From positions 2,678,501 through 2,742,500 of the forward strand of contig NZ_CP029553.1 in the NCBI RefSeq assembly GCF_003173755.1: a DNA stretch of 64,000 nucleotides, written 5' to 3'. The notes under the pieces are model-generated. The model was not told the DNA's origin, ran no database searches, and saw only the letters and a list, made by a program, of their open reading frames with translations. This DNA is from Methylobacterium terrae (GTDB lineage: Bacteria > Pseudomonadota > Alphaproteobacteria > Rhizobiales > Beijerinckiaceae). Every line of letters begins with the position of its first letter. Positions within the stretch are counted from its first letter, which is position 1. Shown one piece after another: positions 7,511 to 25,115 of the stretch. Position numbers and translations under genes: made by a program.

Positions 7511-7602
7511 AGCGCGGCCGGGACCGTTCGTCCGACGTTCATGCTTCCGCATTAACTTTCGTGAACCGGGAGGCTCCTCCCGGTCCCGACAGCGGAGGCC
7601 CG

Positions 7603-19271: not shown

Positions 19272-19682
19272 TCAGGCGCTCGCGGCGACGAGCGGGCGGA
19301 TCGCGGCGACGTGGCGCGGCGCGGGCGCGCGCAGGCGCACGAGGTCGGCGAGCGGCACGAAGGCGTCCGGCGCAGCGCCCCCAACCCGGGTGCCGAAGCC
19401 GAGCGCGAAGGAGAGGGTGAGCTTCCGGTCGGGGGCGAAGCCGAAGGCCTCGAGCGCGGCCGAGAACGCCTCGCGGAAGCTGCGCACCCCGCACCAGCTC
19501 TTCTCCGAGAGGTGCAGCGGCCATTCCCAGTAGCCGTCCGGCCGCCGGGCGGTCAGGGCGTCGCGCTCGATGAAGTAGCCGGTCTCGCGGTGCTCGAGAC
19601 CGTCCGCGTGGAGGCGCCAGTCCCGATTCTCGAACAGCGGGGCGGCCCCGGCCGCGACGTCGTCCAGGCGGGTGGTCTCCAT
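19272..19682 (-). CDS. Unknown protein, 136 aa, divergent from the repair operon
   Basis: Not recognised. ATG 19682-19680 is preceded by GGGAG, and the protein (METTRLDDVAAGAAPLF...) is soluble with an aromatic-rich middle (DGYWEWPLHLSEKSWCGV followed by REAFSAALEAFGFAPD). A LexA-type site (19743-19757) sits 61 bases upstream of the start, and the gene is divergent from the coiled-coil/ATPase/phosphoesterase operon, so it is probably damage-inducible with it. It could be a partner or inhibitor; there is no direct evidence. Confidence 0.6.
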   Translation of the reverse strand: METTRLDDVAAGAAPLFENRDWRLHADGLEHRETGYFIERDALTARRPDGYWEWPLHLSEKSWCGVRSFREAFSAALEAFGFAPDRKLTLSFALGFGTRVGGAAPDAFVPLADLVRLRAPAPRHVAAIRPLVAASA

Positions 19683-19742
19683 GCCGGTCTCCCGTGGTTC
19701 CGCCGCGACGCCGCGCCGCCTCCCGGACCGGCTCATCGCATG

Positions 19743-19757
19743 GAACATTACCGGAAC
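19743..19757. promoter_or_regulatory. LexA (SOS) operator, GAAC-N7-GAAC
   Basis: Perfect match to the alphaproteobacterial LexA half-site pair (GAAC at 19743-19746 and 19754-19757, spacer ATTACCG). It lies between two divergent gene starts (19682 and 19857) and can serve both. The flanks (GGAACA ... GGAACAC) match those of the site at 24059. Confidence 0.7.
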
Positions 19758-19856
19758 ACTGGTCTGATTTGCACAGGTCGTCAACAGGTTTCGACGGAAC
19801 TTTCGCCAGCCCGGGATGCGGTTGCCAAAGCCGGGCCCGAATGCCACCTCAACCGG

Positions 19857-20216
19857 ATGACGACGAGGAGCGAGATGGAGCGCAGCCGCAAGGGGCAGGA
19901 GCCGACTTCGCGAGAGCTCGGTCCGCGAGGTTCCGGCAGCGACGTCGAGGCGCTCAAGCGCCTCGAGGCGCTGCAGCCGGCCTACGAGCGCCTGCGCGCC
20001 GACCGCATCCGGGCCGAGAGCGACGTCGAGCGGCTGACCGCCGAGCTGGCCGCCGCCCGGGCCCAGGCCCGGGAGGAGCTCGGCACCGACGACGAGGCCG
20101 AGATCCGCCGGATGATCGAGGAGGCGCGGGCCGAGAATGCCCGCCGGGTGGAGGATTTCGCCCAAGCGCTGCGGGCGGTGCAGGACCGCCTCGACGCCCT
20201 CGACGGCGCCCGCTGA
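19857..20216 (+). CDS. Coiled-coil protein, 119 aa
   Basis: Function unknown. After a polar, unstructured 28-residue N-terminus, almost the whole protein is a continuous charged helix with heptad character (ALKRLEALQPAYERLRADRI, ESDVERLTAELAAARAQARE, EIRRMIEEARAENARRVEDF). A second in-frame ATG lies at 19875. It precedes the ATPase by 8 bases in an apparent operon. Because that ATPase lacks one arm of a normal Rad50 hairpin, this peptide could pair with its coiled coil or act as an accessory clamp; that is inference. Confidence 0.65.
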   Translation: MTTRSEMERSRKGQEPTSRELGPRGSGSDVEALKRLEALQPAYERLRADRIRAESDVERLTAELAAARAQAREELGTDDEAEIRRMIEEARAENARRVEDFAQALRAVQDRLDALDGAR

Positions 20217-20224
20217 GAGATCCC

Positions 20225-22164
20225 GTGACCCCGACCGACCGCCAGGACGCGCTCGCCCGCGCCGGCCGCCTGCTCGCCCGCCTGGAGGCGACCCGCGACC
20301 GCGACCGCGACACCCTCGCGGAGCGCACGCGGGCGGTGGCCGCCGCCAAGGGCCGCCTCGCCCAGCGCGACGCGATCGACACCTACCTGCGCGAGTTGCA
20401 GCAGGACGCCAACCGGCGCAGCGTCGCGACCTTCGAGACGCTGCTCACCGCCCTCGTCCAGGAGGTGCTGCCCGGCGAGAAGCCGGTGCGCCTGGAACTG
20501 ACCACCGAGCGCGGCCTGCCGGCCCTCGACATCGGGGTCGAGCGGCCCGACGGCGGCCGCGAGGACGTGCTGGAGGACAATGGCGGCGCGATGACCAACG
20601 TGGTCGGGATGGCGTTGCGCCTGATCGCCGTGGTCAAGGCCGGCGTCGGCCGCTTCCTCGCCCTCGACGAGGCCGATTGCTGGATCGCGCCCGACCGGGT
20701 GCCGGCCTTCTACCGGGTGCTCGACGACGGGGCCGCGCGGCTCGGCGTCCAGTGCCTGGCGATCTCCCACCACGACGTCGCCGGATTCGACGCCGGGCTG
20801 ACGGTGAGCCGCATCGCCGGGCGCCCCGAGACCGGCGTCGCGATCGACGGACCGGCCGCGTCCTGCGCCGCCGCGTGGGATCCCGGGGTGCCCGGCTTCC
20901 GCTTCATCCGCCTGGTCGACGTGCAGGGATTCGCCGACGCGACGCTGCCGCTCGCGCCCGGCGTCAACGCCCTCGTCGGGCCGAACAACCACGGCAAGTC
21001 GACGGTGATCCGGGCGCTGCGGGCGGTGTTCTACGGCGAGGTGCGCGACAGCCTGGTGCGGGCGGGCGCGAGCGCGGCGCGGGTCGAGATCGGCGTCGCC
21101 GAGGGCCGGGTGCTCCGCTACGTCCGCCAGCCGAAGCGCACCCCCGTCAACCTGTGGTCGCTGCACGAGGCCGACGGCGCGCTGGTGCAGGAGAACGGCA
21201 CCACCTTCGAGACCGGCGGGCGCGACGTGCCGCCCTGGGTCGAGCGGCTGTTCGGCATCACCCGGGTCGAGGATCTCGACGTGCACGTGGCGCACCAGAA
21301 GTTCCCGGTGTTCCTGCTCGGCGAGAAGCCGGCCCGGCGCTCGGCGGTGCTGTCGATCGGCCGCGAGGCCGGGCTGATCCGCGACATGCAGGCGCTCCAG
21401 CGCGAGCGCGTCACCGAGGACCAGCGCACGATCCGCGAGGGCGAGCGCGAGATCGCGCGCCTGCGCGACGCGCTCGCCGCCCTCGACGGGCTCGACGCCC
21501 TGGCGGAGGCCCTGAACGAGCTCAAGGCCCGAGCCGGCACCCTCGCCGAAGCGGCGGCGCACCTGCGCGACCGCGATGCCCTGGCCGATCGCCTCGCCCG
21601 GGCCCACCGTCTCGCCGGCGGGGCCGCCGCCCGGGCCCGGGTGCTGGCCGACCTGCCGGGGCCCGAGATCGGCGCCGAGTTGGGACGGGCTCTGGCCGAG
21701 GCGCGCCACCGCGAGGCCCTGGGCCGCCGGGTGCTCGCCGCCGCCGCCGACCTCGCGGGCGCGCGGGCAGGGCCGCCGCCCTCGCCGACCTGCCGGAGGT
21801 CCCGTCGCCGCGCGAGACCGCGCAGGCCGCCGCCCACGCCGCCCGCCTGACCCGGCTGGCGCGGGACCTCGCGGATGCGCAGCGGCGGGCCGCAGCGTTG
21901 CGCACCCTGCCCGAGGCGGCGCCCCGGCCGGTGCTCCGGCCGCAGACCGGCGTGACCGGGGACCGCCTCGCCGAGATCGGCCGCCGCCTCGCCGAGGCGA
22001 AGGAGCGCGTGGCGCTCGCCCGCGACGGGCTGGCGGCGGCGGAGGGCGAGATGGCGGCCCTGCTCGCCACGACCGGCGGGCGCTGCCCGGCCTGCGGCAC
22101 CCCCGCCGCCCCAGCCTCGCTGCTCGCCGGCCACCGCCACGCCAGGCCGGAGGAAGCCGCGTGA
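20225..22164 (+). pseudogene. Rad50/SbcC-like ATPase with swapped lobes, single-base frameshift near 21767
   Basis: GTG start at 20225. Residues 1-75 are coiled coil. An SMC-type C-lobe follows: signature-like DNGGAMTNVVGMALRLIAV near 118-136, Walker B RFLALDEADCW at 143-153 and H-loop AISHHD. Then comes an N-lobe: VDVQGFADATLPL, Walker A VGPNNHGKST at 251-260 and a Q-loop region VHVAHQKFPVFLLGEKPARR, followed by about 150 residues of coiled coil. The frame then shifts: from about 21767 the reading continues in the -1 frame (AALADLPEVPSPRETAQ) to a zinc-hook-like CPACG and a stop at 22162-22164. One extra base would restore 646 aa. Unshifted, translation ends at 21850 and lacks the hook. The stop overlaps the phosphoesterase GTG. 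Either decayed or a sequencing error. Confidence 0.75.
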
Positions 22165-23162
22165 TCCTCGGCCGCGAGCGGCTCGACGCCGCGCCGGTGC
22201 CGTGCGCCGGCCTCCTCGTCATCGGCGATCCGCACGTCTCGTCGCGCCGCCCCGGCCGGCGCAAGGATCCCGACTGGCCGGCGCCGATCCTGGCAAAGCT
22301 CGAGCATTGCGTCGCGCTCGCCAACGCGCGGGACCTCGCGCCTCTGCTCCTCGGCGACCTGTTCGAGCGGCCGGTGGAGCCGGACGAGAGCCTGAAGTCG
22401 CGCCTGATCCGGATCCTCAAGGGCTTTCGCCACCGCCCGCTCGCCAATGTCGGCAACCACGACATCCGCCACACCCGCCTGTCGGACGGCGACAGCCTGG
22501 CGATGCTGGCGGTGAGCGACGTCCTCGACGCGGTGCCGGAATCGGGCCCGGCGGCGCATTACCGCGTCGGCGACCGCACGATCGGGCTCGGCGCGACGCC
22601 GTTCGGCCAGGCGATCCCGGCGGATGCCCGCGGGCTGTTTGCGGGCGCCGACGACGTCGTCTGGCTCACCCACCACGACCTCGCCTTCGGGGCGGGCTAT
22701 CCCGGCGCGGTGCCGCCGGAGGGGATTGCCGGCTGCGCGCTCGCCCTCAACGGCCACGTCCACAAGCGCCACGCGCCCCTGCGGGTCGGCGGCACGCTGT
22801 GGTTCAATCCCGGCAACATCACCCGCGGCTCGGTCGACCTCATCGCCCACGTCCCGGCCGTCTTCGTGCTGTCGGGCGACCTCGCGCTCGCCGAGGAGCG
22901 CCTGCCCTTCGCGCCGGACGTGTTCGACCTCACCGGCCGCCAAGTCGCGGCCGATCCCTCGCCCGAGGCGATCGGCCGGATCGAGAGCGCCTTCGTGTCG
23001 CTGCTCCAGGCCGAGACCACCACCGACCTCGCCCGCAGCGACGACGGCGCGCTGATCCGCGAGGAGATCGAGGCGAAGTTTCTTCGCGATGAGACGCCGG
23101 AGCCGGTGCGGGCGGCGATCCGCTCGCTGGTCGAGGCGGCGGTGGCGAAGAAGGGCCTTTAG
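22161..23162 (+). CDS. Metallophosphoesterase, SbcD/Mre11-like, 333 aa
   Basis: Probable two-metal nuclease subunit partnering the upstream ATPase. All calcineurin-type motifs are present in order: GDPHV (Asp23, His25), LLLGDLFER (Asp66), NVGNHD (Asn99, His100), LTHHDL (His171) and NGHVHKRH (His199, His201). The C-terminal 100 residues (from AEERLPFAPDVFDL) are helical and could be the ATPase-binding part. The GTG start overlaps the ATPase stop, implying a complex. It is shorter than E. coli SbcD (about 400 aa) and closer to phage gp47-like versions. Confidence 0.82.
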   Translation: MILGRERLDAAPVPCAGLLVIGDPHVSSRRPGRRKDPDWPAPILAKLEHCVALANARDLAPLLLGDLFERPVEPDESLKSRLIRILKGFRHRPLANVGNHDIRHTRLSDGDSLAMLAVSDVLDAVPESGPAAHYRVGDRTIGLGATPFGQAIPADARGLFAGADDVVWLTHHDLAFGAGYPGAVPPEGIAGCALALNGHVHKRHAPLRVGGTLWFNPGNITRGSVDLIAHVPAVFVLSGDLALAEERLPFAPDVFDLTGRQVAADPSPEAIGRIESAFVSLLQAETTTDLARSDDGALIREEIEAKFLRDETPEPVRAAIRSLVEAAVAKKGL

Positions 23163-23306
23163 ACGATCTTTCGCCTCCGCAGAGCGTCGCGGCAGGCGGT
23201 CCTGACACCCTCCTCGTCGTCCCGCGCTCGGCTGCGCGGACCCGGTGCGACCCGGAGGGTTTCGAGATCGCCTTCGCGATCGTCGGACCAGGATCCTCGG
23301 GACGAA

Positions 23307-23987
23307 TCAGAACCCGAACGGATCCGGATACGGCAGGACCCGCCGCCGCACCGGCGTCTCGGGTAGGATCGGCCGGCTGATATCGACCGCCACCAGTCCC
23401 TCGACGGCGAGCGCCAGCACCGCCGCGACGCCGTCCTGGGCGTTGATCGCCATGGCGGCGCACTCGACCAGGCGGCCGGTGCCGCACTCGTCGAGGTGGT
23501 GCAGGATCCGCACCCGGTCGCCGGCCGAGACGTAGGTGCGGCGGCAGGCCATGATCAGGCGCACCGTCGAGACCCGGGGCTCGGCCCGCAGGGTCGCGGC
23601 GCTCTCGATGACGAAGCGGCGGCCGTCCTCGGCCACCACCGGCTCGCCCGCGACGTAGGCCGTGCGGAACGGGTGACGGCCGAGATCGCTCTCCGCCACC
23701 ACGTCGATTAGGAGGCCCGGCTCGTCGGTGCGCACCTGCTCGAAATCGGCGGCGTGCTCCACCGTCGCGTCGCCGAGTTGCAGGCGGACCGGGGCGGGGG
23801 CGGCGCGCAGGCGCTCCACCGCCGGGTCGAGGGCCGCGATGGCGAGGAAATCCGCCACCAGGGCCGGGCGCGGCACCGCCGGAACCAGGGTGCTCCCGCG
23901 CCGGGGCGGTGCGCCCCGCACCGCGCTGCGGCGCTGGCCCGGGCGCTCGAGCAGGGTCGAGGGATCGAGGAGGGCGGGGGTGCTCAT
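23307..23987 (-). CDS. Unknown protein, 226 aa, under a LexA-type site
   Basis: No family recognised. ATG 23987-23985. A basic, Pro/Arg-rich first 40 residues is followed by a globular part with many beta-strand-like stretches (GLLIDVVAESDLGRHPF, RTAYVAGEPVVAEDGRRFVI, VSTVRLIMACRRTYVSAGDRV, LLVAVDISRPI-like end). The E/D-rich strand pattern would be compatible with a restriction-endonuclease-like fold, but I cannot identify a catalytic set. A perfect GAAC-N7-GAAC site lies 72 bases upstream. It converges on the phosphoesterase gene and is divergent from the annealing-protein candidate. Confidence 0.6.
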   Translation of the reverse strand: MSTPALLDPSTLLERPGQRRSAVRGAPPRRGSTLVPAVPRPALVADFLAIAALDPAVERLRAAPAPVRLQLGDATVEHAADFEQVRTDEPGLLIDVVAESDLGRHPFRTAYVAGEPVVAEDGRRFVIESAATLRAEPRVSTVRLIMACRRTYVSAGDRVRILHHLDECGTGRLVECAAMAINAQDGVAAVLALAVEGLVAVDISRPILPETPVRRRVLPYPDPFGF

Positions 23988-24058
23988 GCGGGGCTCCGGA
24001 TGCGGCGGACGGCGCGTCTCGACCGGTCGGCCACAGTCTTGCGCCGAAGGCGTGATAG

Positions 24059-24073
24059 GAACATTTAGCGAAC
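24059..24073. promoter_or_regulatory. LexA (SOS) operator, GAAC-N7-GAAC
   Basis: GAAC at 24059-24062 and 24070-24073 with a 7-base spacer (ATTTAGC), 72 bases upstream of the leftward gene start at 23987. It shares the GGAACATT core with the site at 19743. Confidence 0.7.
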
Positions 24074-24256
24074 ACAACGGCCGCGGGCAACGGCCCAGAA
24101 ATCGTCCCACCGAAAGCGCGGCCGTTGCGGTCGGACATCGTCCTGCCGCGGCCGCCCCTCCGGCTGGGAGGCGCGACATCAATTCATCGCGGCGGTGCAT
24201 TTCGTCTCGTCGGGATCTCGCGAAAACGCTCGCGCATCCCCATATCCCATGCTAGA

Positions 24257-24271
24257 GAACAAACGTGGAAC
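24257..24271. promoter_or_regulatory. LexA (SOS) operator, GAAC-N7-GAAC
   Basis: GAAC at 24257-24260 and 24268-24271 with spacer AAACGTG, 52 bases upstream of the ATG at 24324. The position is typical for overlap with a promoter. Confidence 0.68.
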
Positions 24272-24323
24272 CGGCCGCCCCGCCTCGTCCGGAATCCGCT
24301 GTCAGCAGGTGAGATCGATCGAG

Positions 24324-25115
24324 ATGAGCGCAACCACGGACAAGCAGATCGCGGACATCCTCGCCACCTACGGCGAGCCGCTGGCCGGCAACGTCTGGCG
24401 CGTGCAGGGCACCGCCGTGATCTACCACAAGGCCCTGGAGCGGATCGCCGTCCAGGCCCGCATCCGCTTCGACGCGCCGGTGATCGTGCGGGCGGAGCGG
24501 GACGAGGCGGTGATCCTGGTGACCGGCCACATGCCGGGCCCGAACGGCGACCGCACCGAATGGTCGATCGGCGAGGCGCTGATCGGCGTGAACTACCGCG
24601 TGTCGGGCCGCCAGGCCGCCTACGTCTTCGCGATGGCGGAGAAGCGGGCCAAGGACCGGGTGATCCTCAAGCTCGCCGGCCTGCACGGCCTGCTCTACTC
24701 CGAGGACGAGGCCGACGAGTTCAAGGCGAGCCGGCCCGACCTGGTGGCGGCGAACCAGTCGCGCCGGGCCGAGCCGGTGCGCGAGGCGCAGATGTCCGGC
24801 GAGGCCGAGCGGGAGACCGCGCAGGATGCGAACGGGCGGGATACGAACGGGCATGACGCGGAAGCCGCGAACGACGCCGATGCACCGCGCACCGACGCCG
24901 CGTCGGCGGAGGCCGACCTGACCGCCCGTATCGACCAGGCGCAGTCGATCAACGCGGTCACCGACCTGATGCTCGCCCCCGAGACGCAAGGAGCGCTCGC
25001 CGCCATGCCGCCGGGCGTGCGCGACGAGGTGCGCGAGCACGCCAAGGCCCGGCTCGTGGCCCTCGGCTGGCCGGCCCGCAACCCGGCCAAGGGACGCAAG
25101 GCCGCGGTGGCGTGA
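24324..25115 (+). CDS. Candidate Rad52/Sak-like ssDNA-annealing protein, 263 aa
   Basis: Conserved N-terminal domain (residues 1-135) then a low-complexity Asp/Ala-rich linker (DANGRDTNGHDAEAANDADA) and a short helical C-terminal part. The segment AMAEKRAKDRVILKLAGLHG (104-123), followed by LLYSEDEADEF, parallels the Rad52 helix pattern EKA-x-KEA-x-TDALKRAL-x-x-FG-x-x-L. It follows a strand region with EWSIGEA. From memory, similar domains occur in phage proteins near recombinases. An annealing role is inference. The ATG at 24324 lies downstream of a LexA-type site; a terminator hairpin follows at 25139. Confidence 0.5.
   Translation: MSATTDKQIADILATYGEPLAGNVWRVQGTAVIYHKALERIAVQARIRFDAPVIVRAERDEAVILVTGHMPGPNGDRTEWSIGEALIGVNYRVSGRQAAYVFAMAEKRAKDRVILKLAGLHGLLYSEDEADEFKASRPDLVAANQSRRAEPVREAQMSGEAERETAQDANGRDTNGHDAEAANDADAPRTDAASAEADLTARIDQAQSINAVTDLMLAPETQGALAAMPPGVRDEVREHAKARLVALGWPARNPAKGRKAAVA

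Follow-up and report, generated by a model that had tools for sequence, protein, structure and literature searches.

In Rad50 and SMC models, both coiled-coil arms belong to one chain that runs out to the hook and back. Rearranged forms of these genes exist as well, and the accessible text of PMC3175470 describes Mre11/Rad50 fusion proteins linked to viruses and plasmids. Here we describe a locus of Methylobacterium terrae (NZ_CP029553.1, a genome of one 6.16-Mb contig) at positions 19272-25115 of a 64,000-nucleotide stretch, referred to as the window, with six genes lettered A to F (A and E on the reverse, B, C, D, and F on the forward strand). It resembles Rad50-Mre11/SbcC-SbcD in having both ABC half-lobes, a coiled coil, a CxxC hook, and an adjacent gene for a phosphoesterase with five motifs. 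In contrast to these systems, its ATPase, the product of gene C, is permuted at the hook (lobe II, lobe I, coil, hook) with a degenerate signature, and an extra small coiled-coil gene, B, is present. With the fusions it shares rearranged genes and ties to viruses and plasmids, whereas theirs are fused, and the accessible text of PMC3175470 does not describe a permutation of Rad50; the term "circularly permuted" occurs there once, in a context beyond that text. Among the titles and beginnings of abstracts listed, with preprints and most subscription journals outside the scope, neither a described permuted or split Rad50 nor a Methylobacterium SOS locus of such kind was recognized. We consider it probable, at roughly 0.7, that the locus is an SOS-inducible pathway of end processing and annealing assembled from parts of mobile elements.

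Judged by the order of its motifs, gene C (20225-22164, forward strand) encodes a circularly permuted Rad50-like ATPase that is opened at the zinc hook, leaving the hook as a free C-terminus. The chain runs from a signature-like motif and a Walker B (DE) through Walker A to a C-terminal CxxC (CPACG in the window), so that the canonical order of N-lobe, coil, hook, coil, and C-lobe is replaced by C-lobe, N-lobe, coil, and hook. Both lobes are nevertheless recognizable, the N-terminal lobe of Rad50/SbcC by a Walker A with invariant GKS and a Q (Q-loop), the C-terminal lobe by invariant DE (Walker B) and SH (H-loop), with a degenerate signature reading NGGAxTN in most members. The CxxC hook is invariant and C-terminal in both alignments (A3 and A8), and the reversed lobe order was seen in the aligned Methylobacteriaceae proteins, in loci L164, L165, and L168, and in six plasmid proteins. 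Along its length, a profile built from nine divergent C members (A8) matched first Rad50 C-domain chains (E 0.004-0.007), then N-domain chains (E 3e-10), and lastly the hook region (E 9e-5); with the narrower profile A3, no Rad50 C-domain chain was among the best 60 matches, and coiled-coil matches are in general chance-prone. In the AlphaFold2 model (mean pLDDT 81, pTM 0.58), residues 221-420 can be superposed on heads of Rad50 and SMC proteins, a comparison that barely covers lobe II. An ordinary SbcCD was rejected because C, like every full-length relative read, has its lobes reversed. Canonical SbcC (TIGR00618) was not found above cut-off in the own genome, which says little with a cut-off reached by one of 14 controls. 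The SMC/Rad50-fold ATPase seen by the first-pass annotation is a permuted Rad50 with reversed lobes rather than an ordinary one, the main point that the annotation had missed.

In the window, C is frameshifted near 21,755-21,790, its last part lying in another frame, which the first-pass annotation had likewise missed. The frame downstream of this lesion is still open through the hook to the overlap with D and consequently suggests a recent lesion or an assembly error. Uninterrupted genes of one frame and 641-647 codons were found in six relatives checked, on which ground a programmed frameshift was rejected.

Gene D (22161-23162, forward strand, 333 amino acids), whose start shares GTGA with the end of C, encodes a protein of the Mre11/SbcD-type metallophosphoesterases with all five metal motifs (DPH, GD, GNHD, THH, and GHVH). 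The five motifs are present in seven of nine D proteins checked and Pfam Metallophos matched six of ten proteins of the family with an E of at most 0.1; the match of the D profile to solved SbcD was weak (E 0.45). Upstream of C lies gene B (19857-20216, forward strand, alternative start 19875) for a small coiled-coil protein of 119 amino acids with a GTDD-type turn. C is directly preceded by a small coil gene also in L164, in L168, and on all six plasmids inspected, but the B of the window reaches E 1e-3 by tblastn only in L295, L298, and L168; a misframed Microvirga row in the alignment of B was disregarded.

The wider distribution of the C family is dominated by plasmids. Among 72,556 plasmid records, 22 hold relatives of the Acidithiobacillus C; every one of these is typed non-mobilizable, and the 20 listed measure 0.27-1.32 Mb. 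Six loci inspected, from hosts among the alpha-, beta-, and gammaproteobacteria, all keep the order small coil gene, C, and following gene, with D recognizable in four. The gene at the D position has one metal motif in Pseudomonas Leaf58 (L296:8838-9740) and none on the Alteromonas plasmid (L297:8641-9417), and neither is similar to D by tblastn; perhaps these genes encode inactive Mre11-type partners retained next to the permuted ATPase. On the M. extorquens AM1 megaplasmid, B-C-D was recognized at L294:6470-9921, a stretch without gene entries in the PLSDB table.

Within approximately 7 kb of C, recJ, thyA (thymidylate synthase), topoisomerase, recQ, RNR, or ligD genes occur in five of the six plasmids, the record of the sixth (AM1) annotating no genes. 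Such neighbors on large non-mobilizable plasmids would suit a plasmid-type replication or maintenance module, in which B-C-D would process ends or forks in very large replicons, leaving the copy on the chromosome, frameshifted in the window, as a relic. We regard such a module as quite unlikely, as the six relatives are intact and B, D, and the first part of C are strongly constrained. In one species pair, dN/dS was 0.15-0.28 (0.19 for B); for the final part of C, it was 0.53. Moreover, the SOS-linked form with its conserved sites appears in a tree of 20 C proteins as one group (94/99, just below the program's mark), adjoined by a Bosea plasmid protein; several plasmid rows of this tree are long branches, and its root is the midpoint.

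A divided form of the ATPase is found in one phage. In Bacillus phage vB_BboS-125, gp32 corresponds to lobe I together with its coil and CxxC, gp34 is a small coil protein, and gp35 corresponds to lobe II (PHROGs 16465, 18563, and 15167, respectively). Homology to C was found at E 1.6e-11 for lobe I with coil and CxxC and at E 1.7e-4 for lobe II, and gp34 resembles B in size, place, and coil only. The phage thus holds three genes with lobe I first, whereas the C of the window is a single chain with lobe II first. No Mre11-type gene was seen annotated in the 12 kb fetched round the phage genes. Within phage records, the C family was found in this one phage, present in two records; viral contigs gave no relative with profile A1 and a weak one (26%) with profile A8, L300, an IMG/VR contig of 406,734 bases. 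A D query from L168 found no match in phage records. Considering these scant phage matches for C and D, plasmids are the better-attested carriers of the C family.

A scan for C, using one genome per species, returned 54 loci, from Methylobacterium (13), Microvirga (35), two Aurantimonadaceae, unclassified Rhizobiales, Sabulicella, Roseococcus, and Acidithiobacillus. All six genes were detected by tblastn within the fetched stretch in 44 of the 54; the other ten hold ABCD (4), ABC (3), CD (2), or BCD (1), and four of these (L120, L124, L126, and L167) end at contig ends. In the two Aurantimonadaceae, the order of E and F is swapped with both still adjacent. Hence, the co-location on which the first-pass annotation had staked its idea of a module was found, and the idea is not refuted on this ground. 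Placement on a chromosome is established for the contig of the window and for one Microvirga record, the others being draft contigs or unassigned in this respect. A search of the phylum with profile A7 matched 332 of 398 genomes; among the matches listed, the full model was covered in the own genome and G062 only, the others being short and mostly round the P-loop.

Taken singly, the genes differ in their spread. Counting the own genome, F was found in 76 of 99 Methylobacterium genomes and E at an identity of at least 78% in 15 of 99, or in 37 of 99 if weak matches are counted, and D was found in five of 61 Methylobacterium relatives. A and F are widespread, also where a search for D or for a close E gave nothing, and E-F is located elsewhere in G020, G035, and G085. 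This pattern would be expected of unlinked neighbors sharing SOS control, with A, B-C-D, and E-F as three independent damage-inducible units. Order and orientation, however, are kept in the 44 complete loci across Methylobacterium, Microvirga, and, with the swap mentioned, the two Aurantimonadaceae, which makes three independent units an unlikely explanation.

The SOS connection itself is based on perfect GAAC-N7-GAAC sites, which the first-pass annotation had noted in the promoter areas and which are present as putative LexA operators between A and B (19743-19757), of E (24059-24073), and of F (24257-24271), all given on the forward strand. A fourth perfect site of the window (7526-7540) lies away from the locus. 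Shuffled windows held 0.93 sites on average, with four or more in one of 100 shuffles, and at genome density the Poisson chance of at least three sites within 5.8 kb is approximately 4e-5. Genome-wide, 69 perfect sites in 6.16 Mb compare with 55 for a control read backwards; as this excess is modest, a single site means little, and clustering and conservation are what counts. In this respect, a perfect site was found in the A/B gap of 51 out of 51 loci and in the E/F gap of 44 out of 44, with gaps bounded by tblastn ends with margins of 30-60 nucleotides; the same fetched stretches outside those gaps contained 47 sites in 800,258 bases. Orthologues of F carry the motif within 400 nucleotides upstream in 28 of 30 cases. 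A further site recurs in many Microvirga loci (e.g., L128:5929), past gene A by approximately 1.5 kb at least.

The genes beside 21 of the 69 genomic sites, picked by eye for AT-rich spacers, were read. Seven of these sites precede genes which, recognized by eye in translations rather than by database match, we take to be imuA, ssb, umuD-like, parE, parC, gyrA, and dnaB; at the remaining 14, the genes are unclear or were not recognized as SOS genes. Position-conserved operators at the promoters and the same motif before presumably classical SOS genes support a putative LexA-type control of the locus, as proposed in the first-pass annotation, which we infer to operate in vivo.

Gene A (19272-19682, reverse strand, 136 amino acids), one of two genes regarded as unknown at first (the other being E), carries its own SOS-type site and is a core gene of the genus. 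It was found in 99 of 99 Methylobacterium genomes, own genome counted, and all 30 orthologues tested have GAAC-N7-GAAC within 400 nucleotides upstream, including 15 less similar ones (53-61% identity, L101-L115). In eight of these 15 loci, no B-like gene was recognized opposite A among the longest forward open reading frames. Because A is universal in the genus, its site is kept, and no B-like gene was seen in the eight, A is best described as a core SOS-box gene with B-C-D placed beside its promoter. All six genes are present at the coordinates initially given, yet A is not specific to the module to which it had been assigned.

Gene F (24324-25115, forward strand, 263 amino acids) and gene E diverge from each other, and a Rad52-like motif had been suspected in one of the two. 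According to the accessible text of PMC11783212, the fold of the Rad52 superfamily is a beta-hairpin and a beta-sheet crossed by a helix. The predicted model of F contains a beta-hairpin, a three-stranded sheet, and a crossing helix, followed by a C-terminal helical domain. In fold comparison, RAD52 and Mgm101 scored best, Sak and Red-beta lower, and a dsRBD row was tied within 1 Z. Against a viral structure library, which took the place of the four representatives of PMC11783212 (criterion: TM-score >0.5 to a representative), TM-scores were at most 0.44 on query length and up to 0.76 on target length, the latter in one row. A Rad52-type fold of F is therefore supported as a prediction, with modest scores. 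No Pfam family of single-strand annealing proteins matched at E 1 in 28 F members.

Relatives of F are numerous in phages. One lies between genes for a RecE-like exonuclease and SSB, and a NinB neighbor was also seen, contexts that add to the likeness to Rad52/Erf/Sak proteins; unlike these, F is without a Pfam annealing-protein match, has a conserved C-terminal helical domain, is chromosomal, and is linked to an SOS box. Queries with A, B, C, D, and E gave no match at E 1e-3 in 84 loci round phage relatives of F. Across 240 class-wide genomes, the F profile A2 matched the own genome alone; this profile is probably too strict and was not used as a sign of absence, relatives in other orders and in phages having been found in other searches. 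In NCBI, many relatives of F carry the name "trna delta -isopentenylpyrophosphate transferase", for which the predicted fold gives no support.

Capture of the entire six-gene locus from a phage was rejected, A being a core gene and the C family mainly plasmid-borne. Of the phage origin considered at first, the part that holds is the many phage relatives of F; C and its relatives reside chiefly on large plasmids, the one phage form being split. In Sabulicella (L164, 5981-10798), B-C-D comes after two genes, one for a phage recombination protein (phrog_7838, phrog_2489) and one for an ImmA/IrrE-like peptidase. GAAC-N7-GAAC occurs approximately 120 nucleotides upstream of the first gene and once more ahead of an ssb recognized by eye, and corresponding sites are present in L165. 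L164 is a parallel arrangement with a phage recombination protein different from F.

The catalytic set of TnsA consists of Glu, Asp, and Lys. Gene E (23307-23987, reverse strand, 226 amino acids), the second gene first regarded as unknown, shows a weak match over residues 46-213 to NF033179, a TnsA-like heteromeric transposase endonuclease subunit (E 6e-6, 25.8 bits, far below the cut-off of 110), as do in total four of 13 E members. No Pfam match at E 0.1 was found for E members and no PDB match at E 10 for E. In nine aligned orthologues read by eye, Asp stands for the first Glu, the Asp is kept, and the Lys is absent. E is perhaps TnsA-like, differing from TnsA in the missing catalytic lysine and in a locus in which no transposase gene was seen.

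The combination of an SMC-family ATPase with a nuclease also recalls anti-phage or anti-plasmid defence, where both would destroy foreign DNA ends and the neighboring genes would be accessory. The Walker-A lobe of C weakly matches GajA, LmuB, and PtuA models among others (best 25 of 62 families), and the C family is carried by plasmids. The matches listed, however, span approximately 20-110 residues round the P-loop, as for any SMC ATPase, D, E, and F have no defence-model match at E 1, and the SOS-type sites and the annealer fold point to repair, leaving defence an improbable function.

In the proposed end-processing and annealing pathway, DNA damage would cause LexA to leave the three operators, and B, C, and D would assemble as a complex of the Rad50-Mre11 type. 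Within it, C would provide lobe II and lobe I fused head to tail, with the hook free at the C-terminus as its motif order indicates, B may contribute a separate piece of coiled coil, and D, given its motifs, would be the metal-dependent nuclease. The complex would open or trim damaged DNA ends, after which F, the predicted phage-related annealer of Rad52 type, would pair the exposed single strands; this joint action of B-C-D with F is what we infer. E, perhaps TnsA-like without the catalytic lysine, might be a DNA-binding partner and is the weakest step, and A would be the neighboring core SOS-box gene.

A further-reaching interpretation is that of a third Rad50 architecture, in which lobe II and lobe I make up a single fused head and the arms lack covalent closure: one arm would end in a free hook, and B would complete the other. 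Together with its Mre11, this Rad50 would have been a mobile cassette of large plasmids and phages that entered alphaproteobacterial chromosomes once and there, joined by a Rad52 annealer of phage type, came under SOS control as RecA-independent break repair. Among the six plasmid loci, B is matched by sequence in only two and D in four, which weighs against this architecture; having put it at even odds before, we now hold it tentatively, at slightly less than that.

The locus is a defined case, in bacteria, of an annealer of Rad52 type and an end-processing machine that apparently share their damage control; its Methylobacterium hosts are culturable and probably genetically manipulable. A natural family cut exactly at the hook, together with a phage form in pieces, would allow testing whether a covalently closed hook is needed in end sensing and nuclease control.
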